Made by a program: the position numbers and the translations under genes. Source: Anastrepha obliqua (lineage: Eukaryota > Arthropoda > Insecta > Diptera > Tephritidae). From it: 64,000 bases of DNA. The stretch spans positions 62,272,406-62,336,405 of the forward strand of contig NC_072897.1 in assembly GCF_027943255.1 (NCBI RefSeq), written 5' to 3'. This document shows positions 11,430 to 49,429 of the stretch, one piece after another (position 1 is the stretch's first letter; the number at the start of each line of letters is the position of its first letter). The notes beneath the pieces are model-generated. The model had not been told where the DNA came from. It did no database searches and was given only the letters and a program-made list of their open reading frames with translations.

Positions 11430-12422
11430 ACACGGAAAGGAGTTTTACGCAAAAATACTGTGCATTGCGTAGCCGGAGTTGGACTGATGAGGGTTATTTT
11501 TTTGAAGCGCGGCCGAAGGCCGACCACGCGAAAAGGAGTTCTACGCAAAAATACTGTGGATTGCGTAGCCGGAGTTGGACTGATGAGGGTTATTTTTTTT
11601 AAGTGCGGCCGAAGGCCGCCCACGCGAAAAAGAGTTCTACGCAAAAATACTGTGGATTGCGTAGCCGGAGTTGAACTGATGAGGGTTATTTTTTTGAAGT
11701 GCGGCCGAAGGCCGCCCACGCGAAAAGGAATTCTACGCAAAAATACTGTGGATTGCGTAGCCGGAGTTGGACTGATGAGGGTTATTTTTTTGAAGTGCGG
11801 CCGAAGGCCGCCCACGCGAAAAGGAGTTCTACGCAAAAATACTGTGGACTGCGTAGCCGGAGTTGGACTGATGAGGGTTATTTTTTTGAAGTGCGGCCGA
11901 AGGCCGCCCACGCGAAAAAGAGTTCTACGCAAAAATACTGTGGATTGCGTAGCCGGAGTTGGACTGATGAGGGTTATTTTTTTGAAGTGCGGCCGTAGGC
12001 CGACCACGCGAAAAGGAGTTCTACGCAAAAATACTGTGGATTGCGTAGCCGGAGTTGGACTGATGAGGGTTATTTTTTTGAAGTGCGGCCGAAGGCCGCC
12101 CACGCGAAAAGGAGTTCTACGCAAAAATACTGTGGATTGCGTAGCCGGAGTTGGACTGATGAGGGTTATTTTTTTGAAGTGCGGCCGAAGGCCGCCCACG
12201 CGAAAAGGAGTTCTACGCAAAAATACTGTGGATTGCGTAGCCGGAGTTGGACTGATGAGGGTTATTTTTTTTAAGTGCGGCCGAAGGCCGCCCACGCGAA
12301 AAGGAGTTCTACGCAAAAATACTGTGGATTGCGTAGCCGGAGTTGGACTGATGAGGGTTATTTTTTTGAAGCGCGGCCGAGGGCCGCCTACGTGATAAAG
12401 AGTTCCACACAAAAATACTGTG
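11430..12422. repeat. Minisatellite, 96-bp unit, about 10 copies
   Basis: Units repeat every 96 bp (for example ACGCG at 11526 and 11622) with only a few substitutions per unit. Each unit holds a strong palindrome (GCGGCCGAAGGCCGC) and a second inverted pair (CTACGCAA and TTGCGTAG about 12 bases apart), plus a T7-8 run. Because 96 is divisible by three and stops are rare, long frames are open on both strands across the array. I treat these as by-products rather than proteins. The end units are the most diverged. Confidence 0.93.
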
Positions 12423-37439: not shown

Positions 37440-38877
37440 GCACCCGGTGGCTTGCTCAAGGCGCAATACCTGAGGGTGAAATTCATCCTAGCAAAAATTG
37501 CCAAGAATGAACAGGCCGGTAAAGCACATGAGCTGGATATAGACGATCGTGCTAAGTGCGAAGCTGCTATCAAAGAGTGCGAGGCCGCAATCAAAGAGTA
37601 CGAGGCCGCCACCGCAGCTAAGCTTAACCAGCCCTAACAACAACCTCATCAACAGCCTAAATCGGCACAGAGCTCGACTAAGCGTAACCGTAACCGACGC
37701 GAAGAGTAAATACTCCTCAGCAAAGGGTGTTGAAGGTCATTCAACCAGTGCGGAAGCTGCGGCCACGAGGGCGGCTTACAGTGAGGTGGCCAGGGATCAT
37801 CTCCGAGTTGCCCTCGTGGACGCTATAACCAATAATGGAAGGTAGATGTTGCCCCTTTGGGCTGCTATTGAGGGACGGCTATCTAGTATAATCGTCAGAC
37901 ACTTCATAGCCAATAAAGGACCAGCACCTCTCTTGCACTCGGGTGATAAAATGTGCCAATCGGTTCTTGAAGGAGTTTCTGGAGAGATTTTTGCTGCGAA
38001 AGGAGTTTCTGCTCCGGTTAGCAACGCCTGGGAACGGCTTTCCCTAAAGCTCATCCCTGCTTCAGAAATTTCAAGGCGACCACGAGCTCGGTAAACAACA
38101 GTAAGCCAAAGTGAAGGTCTTCCCCGCCTTTGTTGCCCCGGATGACGACCTGGAGGAATTAGGACACGATACTAAAAAGCTGCTGGATTAACTGCGGCTC
38201 ACGGACGTAGACTCCGAGCAAAGGGAGCTGTCGTAAAGGTAGGCAACTCTTTTTATCAGTTTGTTAAAAAAAACCTTCGTCACTCTAAACTAGTCACCGA
38301 CAACCTACGAGTCATCCCCCGTGGGGAGGACATCAATTCCGAGCAAAGGGAGCAGTCGTAAAGGTAGGCAACTCTTTTGATCAGTTCGGTAAAAGTAGTT
38401 CAAAGTAACCTTCGTCACTCTAAACTAGCCACCGATAACCTACGATCATCCTCCGTGAGGAGGACATCGATATCTGTCTGATACAAGAACCTTGGATGGG
38501 GCAGCAAAAAATCATGGGAGTGAGGGATAGATTTTATGACCTTTTTTATGTCGCTTACCGCACGATCTGACGGTGTAGTAAGCTATGGGTTTTCGTTCAT
38601 AACACTGAGGGTCTACAATAAGGCCAAGACGTATAATCTAAAGGACCCGGTTGGAGCTGAGATAGGCCCCACGGCGGAATCTGGCTCCGGTCCTACCACC
38701 GCTACAGCGCTACGAAAGGCATCTGCTGACGGCAGTATTTCTTCCTTGTTAGATAGAGTACTTGGTACTACTCTCACTGATGAGGAAGAGCTACTGGCGC
38801 CAGATTCAGATGATCCTAACAAAACGGTGGTGGAGAGGAAGCCCAGTAACTATAATGTTACGCGTTCTTCAAATTAA
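37440..38877 (+). pseudogene. LOA copy B ORF1 remnant
   Basis: Pieces collinear with the intact ORF1 at 44480 are AQYLRVKFILAKIAKNEQAG, VARDHLRVALVDAITNNGR and WERLSLKLIPASEISRRPRA (intact copy: GLRLKLIPASEIPRRPRA). Near 38225-38440 an approximately 125-bp segment (GGGAGC(T/A)GTCGTAAAGGTAG...) is duplicated with divergence. The last frame (38536-38877) ends VVERKPSNYNVTRSSN and overlaps the ORF2 start by about 23 bases. Several frameshifts are present. Confidence 0.75.
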
Positions 38878-41747
38878 CCTTCACCACTCAAAGGATGCGT
38901 CCGCCAAACTCATAATCCACCTGGCCAAAGGTGGACATCATATTGTCCTGATTCAAGAACCATGGGTATCACATGGACTTGTGTGCGGACTAAGGACTCA
39001 AAAATATAAACTGATGTATGCTCGCAACAAAGGTAACCCTAGAGCGAGCGTACTAATAAGAAAAGGGATAAATGCTTTTATGCTCTCTAATTACAGCGAC
39101 ACCGATCAACTGACCATTAGCCTGGAGTCGGGAAATGAACGGATGTGGCTATCTTCCTGCTACCTCGCACATGACCATGAGGAGCTACCGAGATTAATAT
39201 TCAAAGATCTGGTAGCGCAGGCGCAGAAGCTTGGCGCAAAGCTAATTATTGGTGCGGATGTATGTGCGCATCACGAGATATGGGGCAGTACTGATACTAA
39301 AGCTAGAGGTGAGTGTCTTTTTGATTATCTGATAGGTACTAAACTACAGATTTGCAATAAAGGTAATAAACCTACTTTTGTCATTAGTAATAGACAGGAA
39401 GTGTTAGACGCTACTTTTGCTTTTGACTCCGTTATTAACAGAATTAGGAACTGGAAAGTTTTGAAAGAACATTCCTTCTCTGATCATAGATGTATCTCGT
39501 TTGAAGTTAGTAAAAATCTACCGAAATCTAAGCCTAGTAGAAATATCAGGAAAACAGACTGGGAAAAGTATGTAGATTGTATCGGGGTTACCCTAGGAAC
39601 ATGTCCATCTGTGGTACCACAAAGCATAGAAGGAATAGAAAATTTGGTTGACAAAATTACCTACAACATGAATGCTGAATTGGCGGAAGCCTGTCCCCTA
39701 AAAAGGCTGAGGGGTAAACCCAAGCCTAAGTGGTGGACGGTTGAACTAAGCAAGCTTCAAAAAACAAGCAGAAGCGCTTTTAATGAGGCAAAGAAAACAC
39801 GTCTCGAAGAAGATTGGAAAGGCTATAAAGATGCTCTGAGAATCTACAAGAAGGAAATCAGAAATGCCCAAAGGCAATCTTGGAAATGCTTTTGTGAAGA
39901 GGTTGAGGGGGCAACTGAGGCCTCCAGACTTCGTAAGATTTTAGCGGGAAGCCCTCAAAATTGGGAACTGCTACAGAAAAGTGATGGTGCTTTCACTACA
40001 ACCAGTAAAGAGTATCTAGAACTTTTACTCGAGACTCATTTTCCAGGCTGCTCAGACATTACTGGGCATGACATGGAAGATACAGTACACTGTCGTGAAG
40101 TCAGAATAGACGCTATATCTGAGGATCGGCTCTTATGGGCGATTGAAAGTTTCAAACCTTTTAAATCACCGGGTCCAGATGGTATTTACCCGGTGGAACT
40201 GCAAAAGGCCGCCGGATATCTAGCACACGGGCTATTAGCAATCTTCAAAGGTTGCTTTCTTTACGGTCATATACCTCTTAAGTGGAGACAAGTCAAAATT
40301 GTTTTCATTCCAAAAGCTGGTAGAAACTCACATACCCATCCAAAAGACTTAAGACCGATATCTCTTTCTTACTTCCTATTGAAAACTTTGGAGAGGTTGA
40401 TAGAATTTCACTTAAGCCTAACTATAGATAGAAATCTTATCTCTACGTCACAACATGCCTACACGAAAGGGAAATCGGTAGAGATAGTTCTACATAACCT
40501 TATTTACACGGCACAGAGTTCACTGCACAAACAGGAATTTTATTTAGCCGCTTTCCTTGATATTGAAGGGGCCTTTAACAGTGTTTAAGGGGGGGCAATT
40601 ACTGCAGCACTCACTAAACTTAGGGTAGAGCCGGGCTTGGTAGGCTTCATTCGCAAAATGCTAAATAGCAGAATCCTTGAAGCGGAACTAGCAGAATCGG
40701 TGCTCAGGAGATTGGTAAGTAGAGGTACACCGCAGGGTGGAGTCCTCTCACCATTTTTATGGAACGCAGTTGTAAACAAACTTCTGTTAATACTGGAATC
40801 GGTGGGCTGTAAGGTGACCGCTTACGCCGATGATGTTGTTATTGCTGTCTCTGGTAAATTTGTATCTACATTAAGAGACCTAATACAAAATGCTTTAGAT
40901 ATACTTTCTAGGTGGGCAGGAAAGTGTGGTATAGGAGTCAACCCAGACAAAACACAACTCATATTGTTCACTAGGAAACACAGAATCCCTCAGCTAAGTC
41001 CAATTATGCTCAAAGGCAAAGCTTTTGTGATTTCGGAAGAAACCAAGTACTTGGGATTAAACATAGATAGGAAACTGACTTGGAAGTCAAACATCTTAGA
41101 AAGAGTCAGGAAAGCGAACCTAGCTTTTTATGCCTGTAAGAGAGCTTTAGGTAAGACCTGGGGAATTAAACCAAAGGTTGCTCATTGGCTTTACACTGTT
41201 GTCGTCAGACCCATTCTTCTAATATATATGGAAAAGTTGTCTGGTGGTGTGCTATGCAGAAAAAAACCTTTTCTAATTTATTGAATAAGGTGCAGAGATC
41301 AGCGGAATTAGCAATATGTGGCGTCATGAAAACCACGCCATCCATGGCTTTGGACATCATGCTACATCTGCCACCCCTAGATCTCTTCTGCAAATACTCA
41401 GCGGCTGCTCCGCTTTAAGGCTCAAAGCGAGCTCACAATGGAGAGCTGTCACACATGGACATTCAACCATTTTAGACTCCTACACGGATATACCCAGCGA
41501 CTGTGATTATCACCCTCCCATTCTTTGCTTCGAAAGGAATTTCCGAAAGAAAATCCCTTCTAGACTGGAATGGCTTTAAGAAGATCCAACACCCAACATA
41601 TCCGTTAAGATCTACACGGACGGATCCAAAATGGACATCGGTGTAGGATCAGGGTTATTTTGCGAAGAGCTTTCTATTAGTGAATCCTTTAAACTACCGG
41701 ATCACTGTAGCGTTTTTCTAGCGGAAATAAACGCTATTCATGAAGCC
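38855..41747 (+). pseudogene. LOA copy B ORF2 (endonuclease / RT / partial RNase H), broken
   Basis: The start is ATG 38855 (LRVLQINLHHSKDASAKL). The endonuclease has LIQEPW, GADVCAHHEIWGS and SDHRCI. The RT includes SPGPDGIYPVELQK, LRPISLSYFLLKTLERL, SQHAYTKGKS, FLDIEGAFNSV, GTPQGGVLSPFLW and AYADDVVIAV. One in-frame TAA at 40586-40588 follows FNSV. A frameshift near 41225 (within PILL..) and another near 41410 precede the RNase H start IYTDGSKMDIGVGSG (about 41607-41650). The sequence stops at EINAIHEAL, where the DNA transposon sits. All RT catalytic residues survive, so inactivation is recent relative to copy A. Confidence 0.87.
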
Positions 41748-43955: not shown

Positions 43956-43966
43956 AATATATTTCA
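43956..43966 (+). repeat. Target-site duplication, left copy
   Basis: AATATATTTCA, 11 bp, ends exactly one base before the first G of the U6 sequence. An identical copy is at 49419-49429. Confidence 0.88.
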
Positions 43967-43983
43967 GTTCTTGCTTCGGCAGA

Positions 43984-44023
<40 letters not shown>

Positions 44024-44072
44024 GGCCCTGCGCAAGGATGACACGCAAAATCGTGAAGCGTTCCACATTTTT
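43967..44072 (+). ncRNA. U6: U6 snRNA sequence, retrotransposed at the 5' end of a LOA element
   Basis: The 106-nt stretch from GTTCTTGCTTCGGCAGAACA to GTTCCACATTTTT matches insect U6 snRNA along its whole length, including ACAGAGA and the AGCATGG region. It lacks one C in the GGCCCCTGCGC run (GGCCCTGCGC here). U6 is the catalytic RNA of the spliceosome. This copy is unlikely to be a normal gene. It begins exactly after an 11-bp repeat that recurs after the LOA tail at 49419, and upstream there is no convincing PSE plus TATA arrangement at the usual spacing (a TTTATAAA-like stretch at about -39 to -32 is AT-rich background). It reads as a cDNA copy of U6 RNA joined to the retrotransposon. Confidence 0.93.
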
Positions 44073-44479
44073 ATTCTCAACAATCTTTTTTTATCTTTGA
44101 CAGAATCTTTGAACTGCCTACTCTTTCATACGATTATTTCCACTGGTTCTATCGTGGAAAATTGTATATCTGCCCACTGGACAGAAGTCAAAGATAATAT
44201 AAAAGTAGTATGGGGGAACCTGTTATCTCTATAGGGCGCGTCCCCAGGTGGTGGATAGGGGAACGCCTCCCAGATATGGAAGGCAGGAGAATCGGTCTTC
44301 CGCGAACCACACAGGTCGAAGACGTAAACTTCGTTAAAAAAACTCCCTCAACCCAAGGTGTAACGCGACCCGTGCCTATTGGGTGGGTTTGGCAGCCGGG
44401 GGATAAAATTAGGCTGTCTCCTAACGGAGCCCTCCTGATATCAGGCCGCCTCAGGTTGTAACGGTGGCCTTACCATGGT

Positions 44480-45718
44480 ATGGGGCGCTGCCATGGCGGA
44501 CCGTTTATTTCCCCTCCATCCTCATTGGTCACCGCACATGGCGACATGGGCAGCTCTTTGGAAGGGACAGACAAACGAACGGACACAATCGAGCTGAGGA
44601 AGTTGGGAACTCCCTCAGAGGACGAGCTCTTGGCTTCTAGTCAAGAGACAGTTGATGACAAAGCTGTGGGCCACAGCACGCCATCAACTATAAATCAACC
44701 GATCACATCCGCTGATGCCAAGGGTCAAAAGCGTCAATACCCAAAAAAAGGCCCGTCTAGATATAAGCTTTACCAGCGGTCTCTAGCTATTCTCGGCAGA
44801 ATAAGCAAAAATGAGGCCGAAGGTAAAACTCATCCCAAAGATGCGGCCGATAAGGCAAGGTGCCAAAAGGTGGTCGATGAGTACCTGGCGTTCCAGGCCA
44901 CCCAGAAGGCAGAAGCCGTAAAACGCAATCGTTCGCAGGACGAGGGCTGTAAAACTGCGAAAAAGCTCAAGACGTCTCACACTGCTCTGACGCCCAAACC
45001 AGCCAAACGCGCGTTTAACGAGGTGGCACGGGATCACCTGCAAACGGCGTTGGTGGACGAGTTAACGAACCGCGGTAAACCTGCGTTAGAAAGGTGGTCC
45101 GAAATCGAGGCACGGCTGTCTCGCATTGTCGTTGATCACGTCATGGCAAGCCCGGAGGGTCAAGTGCCAGGTTATGATTCAATGGAGGTGGTCCGTGGAT
45201 ACAGGGTGATCAAATGCGACGATCAGTTCTCTGTTGATTTCCTTCAAAACGCTATTAGCAAAATCCAGAGCGACTGGGAAGGTTTGAGGCTCAAACTAAT
45301 CCCAGCCAGTGAGATCCCAAGACGACCAAGGGCTCGTATCTGGATACCGAACATGGAGTTCGAAGCTAAGCAGTTAATACCATACCTGCAAGCACACAAC
45401 CGCACTGTTCCAATGGATGACTGGAGTATCATCAAAGCGGAGGCTCCGCAAAAGAACAGTGTGTCCTTCCTTCTTCAAATCTCGGAGGAGAGTATTGAGC
45501 CACTGGGAAAAGTGGACAACAAACTTCGGTTTGGCGTGAGGAAAGCGCATCTGAAGTTATTCCGTTCTGCAAATCCGGAGGATGAGCAGGACGAGGTTGA
45601 CGACGCTAATGAGTTGCTCATGGGCATGCAACTGGAAGAAGCCGGGTCCACCCAAAACGATGGCGCTAATGAGCAGCATACGGGCATGCAGCTTGACGCC
45701 CCTAAAAACGACCAGTAA
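44480..45718 (+). CDS. LOA ORF1 protein (RNA-binding, Gag-like), intact
   Basis: 412 codons. ORF1 proteins of LOA elements bind the element RNA and help form the ribonucleoprotein. The N-terminal 100 residues are low-complexity. Residues about 95-160 are Lys-rich (RYKLYQRSLAILGRISKNEA, KRNRSQDEGCKTAKKLK). Residues about 175-220 hold FNEVARDHLQTALVDELT. A conserved C-terminal domain (about 230-385) contains LRLKLIPASEIPRRPRARIW and YLQAHNRTVPMDDW. The acidic tail has two GANE/GMQL-type repeats. No CCHC knuckles are visible. The start is either ATG 44480 or the in-frame ATG at about 44545. The stop TAA is followed after two bases by the ORF2 ATG (TAAGTATG), suggesting termination-reinitiation. 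Confidence 0.88.
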   Translation: MGRCHGGPFISPPSSLVTAHGDMGSSLEGTDKRTDTIELRKLGTPSEDELLASSQETVDDKAVGHSTPSTINQPITSADAKGQKRQYPKKGPSRYKLYQRSLAILGRISKNEAEGKTHPKDAADKARCQKVVDEYLAFQATQKAEAVKRNRSQDEGCKTAKKLKTSHTALTPKPAKRAFNEVARDHLQTALVDELTNRGKPALERWSEIEARLSRIVVDHVMASPEGQVPGYDSMEVVRGYRVIKCDDQFSVDFLQNAISKIQSDWEGLRLKLIPASEIPRRPRARIWIPNMEFEAKQLIPYLQAHNRTVPMDDWSIIKAEAPQKNSVSFLLQISEESIEPLGKVDNKLRFGVRKAHLKLFRSANPEDEQDEVDDANELLMGMQLEEAGSTQNDGANEQHTGMQLDAPKNDQ

Positions 45719-45720
45719 GT

Positions 45721-48700
45721 ATGGGTCTCAAGGTTGTCCAGATCAATCTGCAGCACTCCAGGACTGCAACGGACAACCTAGACGTTCTCCTATCGGAGGA
45801 GGACGTAGACATCGCACTGATACAGGAACCCAGAGTGCGGAGTACTGAGGTAAGCGGATTCTCTCTCAAAAACTACAACTTGTACTATAAGCGGACCCAG
45901 GGTAACCCCAGGGCATGTATTGTAGCAAAAAAACATCTAAATGTATTTTTAATCCCATCCTACAGCTCATCGGATGTGACGGTCATCGAAATGGAGGCTA
46001 CTGACGGCGTCAGGATCAAAATTGCCTCCATCTACATGGCACACGACCAACCAGCACCACCTGACGAGGCTCGTAGGCTTGTGCTTGACTGCAAAAACAG
46101 TATCCTGCTACTAGGATGCGACGCCAATGCGAGGCATCCCCTATGGGGGAGTACCGAAACGAATGATCGAGGTGAGTCCCTATATGAATTTATCATCAAT
46201 ACTAACCTAACAGTATGTAACAGGGGTAATACCCCGACTTTCACCTTTCCAAGCACGGAAAGCTTTAGAGGATGGGCGGAAGTAATAGATGTGACATTAC
46301 TGTCTGAAAATACTTCAGTGAGGGTAGAAAATTGGAGAGTCTCAAGCAAAAAGTCCTTTTCGGACCACAGCTGGATCCTCTACCACCTGGATCTTGAGAT
46401 AGATCCACCCTTACCATATCGAAACCCACTTAGAACAAATTGGAAACGGTTCAAAAATGTAGTAGGGAATAGGATAGGAAGGATTCCGATCCATCAAATC
46501 ACTCTCGCAGAAAACATTGAGAGTAGGGTCACAACATTGGAAAAGACATTCAGTAGGGCCTACAAAACGTCATGTCCAATTAAATATAGCAAAAAATCCT
46601 ATCCTCCTTGGTGGAGCAATGAGCTCTCAAAATTAAGGGAAGAAGCCAGATCAAATTTCAATCTCAGCTACTCAACAGGTAATTGGCAGTTGTATAGAGA
46701 AAGTCGGAGACAATACAAGAAGGCAATCAGGGCCGCCAAGAAAGAGAGCTGGAGAGATTTCTGTTCTTCTATCGAATCTACCAGAGATTCTGCGAGACTT
46801 AGCCGTATTCTGTCCAAGGATCATTCAATGGCTTCTTGGGTCAAGAGGCCGGATGGCACTTGGACTTCTGCGGCGGAAGAGTCTCTAGAACTTCTTTTAG
46901 ATACACATTTTCCGGGATGTAGCACCCATGACAGTGATGCTGGGAGAATCCAGCGGAGCCGATATGACCCACAGCATCTTGTCGATGTAATAGTTACGAA
47001 AGAGAAGGTTGCATGGGCAATCAAATCATTCTCACCTTTCAAATCTCCAGGCCCTGATGGGATCTTTCCTAAGATGTTACAGGAAACTCTTGATAGTATT
47101 CTACCATGGCTAATGGAAATTTTCAAAGCGTGTCTAAATCTAGGTTATATTCCAAACAGCTGGAAACTTGTTAGGGTCGTCTTCATACCAAAGGCAGGCA
47201 GAAGAGGACATGAATCAGCGAAGGACTTTAGGCCTATCAGTTTGTCGTCCTTCCTTGTTAAAACTTTGGAACGGCTTTTAGATATGCACATTAGAAGTTC
47301 GCTGGAGAGCTTTAGTATATTAACTGCACAACATGCTTACCTCAAAGGCAAATCGACGGAGACAGCGCTTCACGAGGTAATCCGAACAATAGAGGGGTCT
47401 CTAGTAAACAAACAGTATACGATGGTAGCTTTTCTTGACATAGAGGGTGCATTTAATAAAGTTAGCACGAATGCTTTCCAACGGGCGTTAATAGACTTAG
47501 GGGTGGAAAATTGTATCACCAATTGGATCATCTCTGTGCTAGAAACCAGGATCATTAGAGCTAATATGGGTAACATCAACATAACTAAGAGAGTCCACAG
47601 GGGTACTCCACAGGGGGGAGTACTATCTCCACTTCTTTGGTTATGTGTGATTAGCAAAATCCTAATAAAACTTAATAGAGGAGGGGTAAAAGCGGTGGCG
47701 TACGCTGATGATGTGGTGCTAATGGCGTCAGGACTGTGTCCTAATACGATCAGTGGGATCATTCAAAGGGCGTTAGGCGAGCTTAATTCTTGGGCAACAG
47801 GCTGTGGCTTAAGTTTAAACCCGCGTAAAACAGAACTCATGCTTTTTACCACCAGATACAAGGTACCAAGCTTTACCCTACCAAATATTAATGGACAAAC
47901 CCTCTCACTTTCACCCAGTGCAAAGTACTTAGGGGTAATTTTGGACTCCAAACTTAGCTGGAAATTAAACGTCGAAGAACGGGTAAGGAAAGCTGAAATT
48001 GCTCTATATGCCTGTAAACGTATGCTTGGAAGAAGATGGGGTCTTCAACCTAAGCATACATTATGGTTGTACAAGGCGGTTATACGACCAATTTTATCGT
48101 ATGGTTCGGTAGTTTGGTGGAAAGCTCTAGGGAGAGATTACAACATCAAATTACTCGGCAGAATACAAAGATCAGGCTGTGCAATAACGGTCGGCGCAAT
48201 CAGATCATGTCCAAGGGAGGCTCTGAACGCACTGACACACGTTATTCCAATAGACCTACATATTAAGAAGTCGGCAACCATGAGTGCATTTAGGTTAAAC
48301 GAAGCGGGCCGCTGGAAAGAAAACACTTATGGTCATGCCAGTCTACTATTGCGGCAAACTCAGTTAACCTCGGTGAGGACTGACTACATCGTCCCGACGG
48401 TAACATTCAATAGGAATTTTGCCACTCTCTTTCCATCTAAGGAAGAGTGGAATAAGGGATTCTCATTAAACAACTTCGACACTACAGTCTATACAGATGG
48501 TTCTAAAATTGATTGTGGTGTTGGAGCTGGTATATATTCTCATAGACTTAAAATTGAAAAATCTGTGCGCCTCCCCAATACCTGCAGTGTCTTCCAGGCG
48601 GAAGTACTGGCAATTGGGGAAGCTTGTAGGCTACTAATCACAGACTTCTCTTTTAAGAGCAATATCGCTATTCTCTCGGATAGCCAAGCTGCAATCCAGG

Positions 48701-49314
48701 CACTGGATTCAGCGACTACAACCTCAATGGTGGTGGAACAAAGTAGGAATAGCCTTTCCACCTTGAGCGAAAAACATAATGTTACCTTAATCTGGGTCCC
48801 AGGACATCGGAATATTGAAGGTAACGAAAAAGTAGATGAACTGGCAAGAGGGGGATCTGCCATGAATAACGCTCTTGCAGAACCGGTATTCACACCATTA
48901 GGTGCAGTCAAGAGTACAATTTCCCTAAAATACCTCCGAATGGCGGAGTGTAGATGGAGGGGCCAGACGAAATGCAAAATCAGCACAACGTCATGGCCCA
49001 CCTACAACCTTAAACAATCATCAATATTGTTAAACATGAAACAACGGGATGCCTGGAGACTAACGGCAGTCATAACTGGCTTTTGGTCTGTCGGAGAACA
49101 GGCAGCCAAAATGGGCATCCCTCACAACACATACTGTCACAGTTGCAAACAACCGGAGAAAAAGGAAACAATCTTCCATTTCCTCTGTGAATGCCCTGCC
49201 CTATGGAAGGACAGAATGCTAACCCTGGGCAAACCGCTGTTCGAGAAGCTCGAACAACTGTGCTTAGATGTCAACAACCTAATAAGGTTGCTGAACCGCA
49301 CAGACTGGGTATAG
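45721..49314 (+). CDS. LOA ORF2 protein: AP endonuclease, RT, RNase H, zinc finger; intact
   Basis: 1197 codons without interruption, the full length for the group. The endonuclease (1-225) has Asn9, Glu36 in IQEP, Asp134/Asn136 in GCDANARH and SDH at 214-216, so its catalytic set is complete. The RT (about 430-740) carries SPGPDGIFPKML, RPISLSSFLVKTLERLL, QHAYLKGKST, AFLDIEGAFNK, GTPQGGVLSPLLW and the active site AYADDVV near 660. RNase H (about 922-1060) has YTDGSK, FQAEVLAIGEA, LSDSQAAIQAL and GNEKVDELARGG, with the acidic residues present. A C-terminal CCHC finger (CHSCKQPEKKETIFHFLCEC, about 1139-1158) may help recognise the RNA 3' end. It should nick target DNA and copy its RNA there. 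It is likely active in sequence terms. Confidence 0.95.
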   Translation: MGLKVVQINLQHSRTATDNLDVLLSEEDVDIALIQEPRVRSTEVSGFSLKNYNLYYKRTQGNPRACIVAKKHLNVFLIPSYSSSDVTVIEMEATDGVRIKIASIYMAHDQPAPPDEARRLVLDCKNSILLLGCDANARHPLWGSTETNDRGESLYEFIINTNLTVCNRGNTPTFTFPSTESFRGWAEVIDVTLLSENTSVRVENWRVSSKKSFSDHSWILYHLDLEIDPPLPYRNPLRTNWKRFKNVVGNRIGRIPIHQITLAENIESRVTTLEKTFSRAYKTSCPIKYSKKSYPPWWSNELSKLREEARSNFNLSYSTGNWQLYRESRRQYKKAIRAAKKESWRDFCSSIESTRDSARLSRILSKDHSMASWVKRPDGTWTSAAEESLELLLDTHFPGCSTHDSDAGRIQRSRYDPQHLVDVIVTKEKVAWAIKSFSPFKSPGPDGIFPKMLQETLDSILPWLMEIFKACLNLGYIPNSWKLVRVVFIPKAGRRGHESAKDFRPISLSSFLVKTLERLLDMHIRSSLESFSILTAQHAYLKGKSTETALHEVIRTIEGSLVNKQYTMVAFLDIEGAFNKVSTNAFQRALIDLGVENCITNWIISVLETRIIRANMGNINITKRVHRGTPQGGVLSPLLWLCVISKILIKLNRGGVKAVAYADDVVLMASGLCPNTISGIIQRALGELNSWATGCGLSLNPRKTELMLFTTRYKVPSFTLPNINGQTLSLSPSAKYLGVILDSKLSWKLNVEERVRKAEIALYACKRMLGRRWGLQPKHTLWLYKAVIRPILSYGSVVWWKALGRDYNIKLLGRIQRSGCAITVGAIRSCPREALNALTHVIPIDLHIKKSATMSAFRLNEAGRWKENTYGHASLLLRQTQLTSVRTDYIVPTVTFNRNFATLFPSKEEWNKGFSLNNFDTTVYTDGSKIDCGVGAGIYSHRLKIEKSVRLPNTCSVFQAEVLAIGEACRLLITDFSFKSNIAILSDSQAAIQALDSATTTSMVVEQSRNSLSTLSEKHNVTLIWVPGHRNIEGNEKVDELARGGSAMNNALAEPVFTPLGAVKSTISLKYLRMAECRWRGQTKCKISTTSWPTYNLKQSSILLNMKQRDAWRLTAVITGFWSVGEQAAKMGIPHNTYCHSCKQPEKKETIFHFLCECPALWKDRMLTLGKPLFEKLEQLCLDVNNLIRLLNRTDWV

Positions 49315-49400
49315 TCATGCCGTAAATAACAAGTTGGTAACGAGGATGTGGCAACAAAATGGTGCGGAAGCGCTAGTTGGATTCAGGATGAATCACCACT

Positions 49401-49420
49401 CTAACCAACCAACCAACCAA
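49401..49420 (+). repeat. CCAA short-repeat tail of LOA copy C
   Basis: CTAACCAACCAACCAACCAA closes the element and directly precedes the right target-site duplication. Short-repeat tails instead of poly(A) are usual for LOA/I-type elements. Confidence 0.88.
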
Positions 49421-49429
49421 TATATTTCA
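49419..49429 (+). repeat. Target-site duplication, right copy
   Basis: AATATATTTCA, identical to 43956-43966. The first AA could also be counted as tail. Confidence 0.88.

Follow-up and report, generated by a model that had tools for sequence, protein, structure and literature searches.

A U6 snRNA copy, a putatively mariner-like piece and an almost complete LOA-type LINE inside one target-site duplication in a fly genome

We found that a U6 snRNA copy, a middle piece with mariner-like features and a LOA-type LINE constitute one genuine single insertion in the window, which is the whole stretch of 64,000 nucleotides of Anastrepha obliqua that was analysed and is part of contig C6 of an 836-Mb assembly (all genome searches below cover that assembly). 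The insertion is tripartite, with a single target duplication enclosing all three parts. It is of interest above all because, together with other U6/LINE joints found elsewhere in the same genome, it suggests that U6 capture may be common to LINEs in general, so that an accident familiar from mammals may occur far more widely. The parts of the insertion are as follows.

43956 to 43966, no strand: left copy of the target-site duplication, AATATATTTCA, identical to 49419-49429
43967 to 44072, plus strand: U6 snRNA copy, complete (Rfam RF00026, 110.2 bits)
44073 to 44210, plus strand: middle piece, an antisense mariner-like repeat, internally shortened, with at least 41 other genome matches
44211 to 49418, plus strand: LOA-type LINE with a CCAA-repeat tail and 20 other copies
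44480 to 45718, plus strand: ORF1, 412 aa from the first ATG, DUF4780, true start uncertain
45721 to 49314, plus strand: ORF2, 1197 aa, with endonuclease, reverse transcriptase (RT) and RNase H
49419 to 49429, no strand: right copy of the target-site duplication, identical to 43956-43966

Anatomy of the insertion

A previous sequence-only reading of this stretch had placed identical copies of AATATATTTCA before U6 and after the LOA tail, and this was borne out: AATATATTTCA ends right before G1 of U6 and the same 11 bases stand directly after the CCAA tail, the length of the duplication being 9-11 bp because two A's are common to the tail and to AATATATTTCA. Exact matches between the two 2-kb flanks were rare (15 of 3,960,100 pairs for 11-mers, 112 of 3,968,064 pairs for 9-mers), so that chance would seldom put a match precisely at the two ends of the insertion. 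A laxer control, which accepted a match of at least 11 at any place in the downstream 6.5 kb, was reached at 3% of the positions used for comparison, and the case for the duplication rests on the match sitting exactly at both insertion ends. No repeat of 8 nt or more was found around U6 alone, LOA alone, or U6 with the middle piece, where the longest bracketing repeats were 7, 7 and 6 nt, respectively. The same reading was right that U6 and LOA share one orientation and that no such repeat separates them (no bracketing repeat of 8 nt or more), and was mistaken in joining U6 directly to LOA, since 138 nt of a third sequence (44073-44210) lie between the two.

The U6 copy covers the full Rfam model (1-105 of 105, E 7.2e-28) and runs from G1 to five T; this full-length RF00026 match bears out the claim that it extends from the exact mature 5' nucleotide to the T run. 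Only about 1 nt is shared at the joint between U6 and the mariner-like piece. Compared with the Rfam consensus, the window U6 has one C fewer within the GGCCCC stretch, a feature common to three U6 copies (window 43967-44072, L061 and L063), and the shared form is perhaps a U6 gene variant.

The LOA-type LINE and the mariner-like piece

The name LOA comes from the sequence-only reading, and the three domains of ORF2 are those expected of a LINE of the LOA clade; the sole NCBI-named relative among the matches listed is annotated as R1-type. Other copies of the element align from window base 44211 (19 of 20) or 44213 (1 of 20), and over about 360 bp their identity to the window is 98.6-99.2% in 19 and 95.3% in L048. 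CCCT precedes TGGGGG as the element start in 17 of the 20 copies (the exceptions are L039, L044 and L050), and an exact 10-14-nt duplication was present at the LOA start in 13. Shorter duplications of 5-7 nt were seen at L039, L043, L045 and L056, none was found at L058, and the stretch read for L044 contained no LOA 3' end. The start duplications and the CCCT of most copies indicate that LOA normally begins CCCTTGGGGG; the natural 5' end, which the sequence-only reading had proposed to seek by such an alignment, was therefore found, and the window element stops 4 nt (CCCT) short of it. In addition, the window element is without roughly 100-160 bp at 44562-44570 that are present in the 20 compared copies. 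Thus the earlier description of a full-length coding LOA held as to coding, both reading frames being open, and failed as to length, by these 4 nt and by the internal shortfall. Near the ORF1 start, a GACAGACAAACGG-rich stretch varies in length by roughly 100-160 bp between LOA copies, and this makes the ORF1 start uncertain.

None of the 20 compared copies has U6 at its 5' end. Other RNA heads were sought with Rfam at L050, L044, L058, L039, L043 and L009 (the window's own locus, scored with an incomplete U6), and nothing exceeded the cut-off. An extra RNA head at L050 was considered and rejected, as its approximately 300 extra bases recur downstream as a long target duplication; this copy (L050 on the 5' side, L100 on the 3' side) thus has a direct duplication of about 300 bp, not 10-14 bp. 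Elsewhere in the window, a second, broken LINE lies about 3 kb upstream of the insertion (38753-41284) and resembles LOA ORF2 by eye, and about ten 96-bp tandem repeats (11436-12422) are open on both strands, with 378 and 350 aa from stop to stop. A host zinc-finger ORF has nine relatives, and the single one with a named organism comes from Lucilia cuprina, which makes a fly likely.

A genome search with 44074-44225 gave at least 42 matches including the window, the other 41 at 78-93% (scoring covered the best 40 of 54 candidates). Among the matches listed, the nearest copy is on contig C2 (L010/L011), with three blocks at 92-96%, and relative to it the middle piece is without about 26 and about 71 nt. 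A near-identical source was absent among the matches listed, the nearest differing by 4-8% per block. Splicing as the cause of the two gaps was rejected, because the gap borders in the C2 copy are by eye not GT-AG. The C2 copy also has an extra insertion of about 100 bp flanked by AAAGATTATAT. Homology of the middle piece extends to 44213, and the TGG at 44211-44213 is common to LOA: the C2 copy reads AGTAGTATGG and then departs, LOA reads TGGGGGAACC, and the mariner/LOA joint thus has 3 nt of microhomology. The opposite strand of one repeat copy matches PF16087, a mariner-type helix-turn-helix, below the cut-off (E 0.0049, 16.9 bits, cut-off 22.6). This match, with other motifs that we take to be of mariner type, faintly suggests that the middle piece may be mariner-like.

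U6 loci elsewhere in the genome

The Rfam U6 search of the genome gave at least 36 matches at E up to 10, at least 16 of them over the cut-off; these are lower bounds, with the best 48 of 79,432 candidates scored, some U6 copies represented only in part and the window's own copy missed, and weak matches can be chance because 10 of 14 prokaryote controls also match below the cut-off. Thirty of the 36 loci were read for flanking LINE homology. In 10 of these 30 other loci, LINE homology in the orientation of U6 begins no more than 4 nt after the U6 end, by LINE protein homology in eight (L059, L060, L062, L065, L068, L072, L080, L088) and by LOA DNA at nt 2-3 after U6 in two (L063, L075). The mirror test upstream of U6 gave 0 of 30 within 4 nt and 1 of 30 (L059) within 10 nt. 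Other LINE types are under-counted here because the query consisted of 120 LOA/R1-like proteins only. With Pfam, 10 loci picked as LINE-like had RT or RNase H downstream in six cases, four over the curated cut-off and two below it (L062, L068), and an upstream match at L059 only, also below the cut-off.

When the genome was searched by pattern for U6 3' ends, 21 sites came up (1 in the reversed control): three with promoter-like elements (L109-L111), the window copy and 17 others. The three have upstream GCTTTTTCGG and TATAA in common, which presumably resemble the proximal element and the TATA box of insect U6 genes, so that L109-L111 look like U6 genes with promoters; neither GCTTTTTCGG nor TATAA occurs upstream of the window U6. 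LINE homology follows right after U6 in eight of the 17 other sites (L059, L060, L062, L063, L065, L068, L080, L112), and a LINE-like sequence follows by eye only in four (L061, L064, L085, L113), with the computed LINE match of L085 on the other strand only. L069, L073, L082 and L114 are without a LINE assignment, and one site was unread. The base after the T run was also considered as a signal (A in 13 of 20 T-run copies, by eye) and is uninformative because T is excluded by definition.

U6 joints involve more than one LINE lineage: the LINE at L063 and L075 is LOA-type (85% DNA identity), identity to the LOA-type RT is no higher than about 28-31% at L059 and L060, and L062 has a TAAA tail. 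All 11 LINEs placed by computed homology begin in the RT domain or later, and none is full length. At L062, the TAAA tail is followed by TAAGAACAACAT, which also stands before its U6 with 2 extra bases (a 12-bp duplication), a length reached by 0 of 86 control positions; at most of the other U6/LINE loci, the 1.5 kb that were read showed no duplication. The U6 part seems to be 3'-truncated in L072, L075 and L088, and this is tentative because L075 and L088 are below the Rfam cut-off. In L074, L075 and L088, U6 stops after the same bases, GATTAGC; in L075 and L088 a LINE comes next, and L074 is without a LINE assignment.

Origin of the insertion and comparison with known systems

The single duplication and the exact ends of U6 argue for one U6-adding retrotransposition of a non-L1 LINE, as do the lack of a U6-type promoter upstream and the recurrent U6/LINE joints elsewhere. 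Starting from this anatomy, with its third piece and the natural LOA 5' end, we consider that the insertion probably arose in one round of target-primed reverse transcription during which the template was switched twice, U6 being copied last. The LOA enzymes would have copied LOA RNA from the CCAA tail to within 4 nt of its 5' end; the RT would then have shifted at the 3-nt match (TGG) onto an antisense transcript of the mariner-like repeat and used about 138 nt of it as template, skipping twice unless the shortening was already present in the source RNA. It would next have shifted to the 3' U run of U6 snRNA and copied it to its first base; once the U6 end was attached to the target, the three parts would have come to stand within one duplication. 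We infer an RNA template for the mariner part, the order in which the jumps came, and switching in preference to ligation. Less in favour of this account are the absence of a near-identical source of the middle piece among the matches listed, the joint of only about 1 nt between U6 and mariner, the lack of a duplication in the 1.5 kb read at most other U6/LINE loci, and the 100-160-bp shortfall of the window LOA. The sequence-only reading had proposed that the LOA RT jumped to U6 RNA: a single event adding U6 to a non-L1 LINE stands, the jump was not direct, with the mariner-like piece in between, and RT switching and prior ligation are not separated.

At the mariner/LOA joint, switching is favoured because of the TGG microhomology, the loss of CCCT and the lack of a parental duplication. 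The U6 joint is compatible with either switching or ligation, and the approximately 1 nt shared there gives no special support for switching. Ligation of RNA as the first step, in which a ligase such as RtcB joins the U6 3' end to a 5'-OH mariner or mariner-LOA RNA that is then copied, agrees with a complete U6 that extends through its T run and whose joint shows no clear microhomology, and PMC13247085 describes ligation of U6 to LINE-1 RNA, citing Moldovan 2019. However, it leaves the TGG microhomology and the missing CCCT at the mariner/LOA joint unexplained, and no self-cleaving ribozyme was found that would give LOA a 5'-OH (at the LOA 5' end, Rfam gave no HDV-like ribozyme even with E as high as 10 allowed, and a home-made pattern search gave 0 matches, against one match in 4 of 100 shuffles). 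We regard ligation first as unlikely for the insertion as a whole.

Much less probable is 5' transduction, by which a parent LOA downstream of a mariner remnant was read through and U6 was added by one switch or ligation. L1 copies of near-full length with extra 5' sequence are described in PMC13174262, but a read-through RNA should retain the parental duplication and CCCT before TGGGGG, neither of which is present, and no mariner-LOA junction besides the window was seen among the matches listed. End-joining repair at the 5' end, with patches of mariner DNA as filler and U6 joined separately, would suit a middle piece that aligns with its best relative in patches (the gaps being about 26 and 71 nt); we give it very little credence, as filler DNA is not expected to contain a complete, correctly oriented and exact-ended U6, and joints between U6 and LINEs occur repeatedly. 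Least credible of all are separate insertions or a false join in the assembly that mimic one event; U6 copies and repeats are abundant in the genome, but only the outermost repeats fit a duplication, the joints lie at the U6 T run and the LOA start, and the same type of joint recurs.

Work on mammals uses the U6/L1 fusion to read out how L1 behaves, and whether RT switching or RNA ligation causes it is still debated. Taking the window insertion and the other joints together, U6 capture at the 5' end of LINE cDNA or RNA might be general in animal LINEs and no speciality of L1; in this fly it might involve several lineages, be able to head a near-complete coding LINE and perhaps use a 3'-shortened U6, a reading that we hold about as probable as its opposite. 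The use of several lineages and of 3'-shortened U6, if true, would point to a shared cause, for example the 3' end of U6 or the presence of U6 particles in LINE RNPs. If several fly LINE lineages carry the fusion, neither L1 nor mammals are needed, and the question of its cause becomes testable in Drosophila cells. Moreover, a near-complete coding LINE with a new 5' head means that a LINE can gain a 5' region in one step.

According to PMC13174262 and PMC4476161, U6/L1 chimeras are common in mammals; a complete U6 stands in sense orientation on the 5' side of an often truncated L1, and a duplication surrounds both. The window insertion is alike in these features of U6 and duplication and differs in being non-L1 and non-mammalian, in the third piece in between, and in a LINE that is almost complete, whereas the mammalian one is usually 5'-truncated. 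In contrast to the three other loci in which U6 seems 3'-truncated, PMC4476161 states that such truncation was never seen for U6/L1 switching; its table gives repeat-associated U6 as 0 in Xenopus, chicken, turkey and zebra finch and 16 in lizard. No insect U6/LINE chimera was found among the papers listed from the openly licensed PMC literature, judged by titles and abstract openings.

Tripartite chimeras are reported in PMC2104539 (WEIRD/Mg-SINE/MGL in Magnaporthe, B2/U6/L1 in mouse), and these likewise consist of three transcripts that share one orientation within a single duplication and are attributed to two switches of template. Here, unlike there, U6 is outermost and the middle is antisense DNA-transposon sequence; the LINE is nearly of full length and its ORFs are open, while the Magnaporthe LINE part has 4369 nt of about 6 kb by the same source. 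The SINE HaSE2 of Helicoverpa armigera is also an insect retroposon with mariner-like sequence, which its authors (PMC3272025) ascribe to integration or template switching; it differs in being a tRNA-headed SINE family with mariner at the 3' side, without U6 and without a coding LINE. U6/LINE chimeras of mammals and tripartite chimeras of mammals and a fungus were already known; new here is a chimera that is of an insect, non-L1, near-full-length and tripartite.
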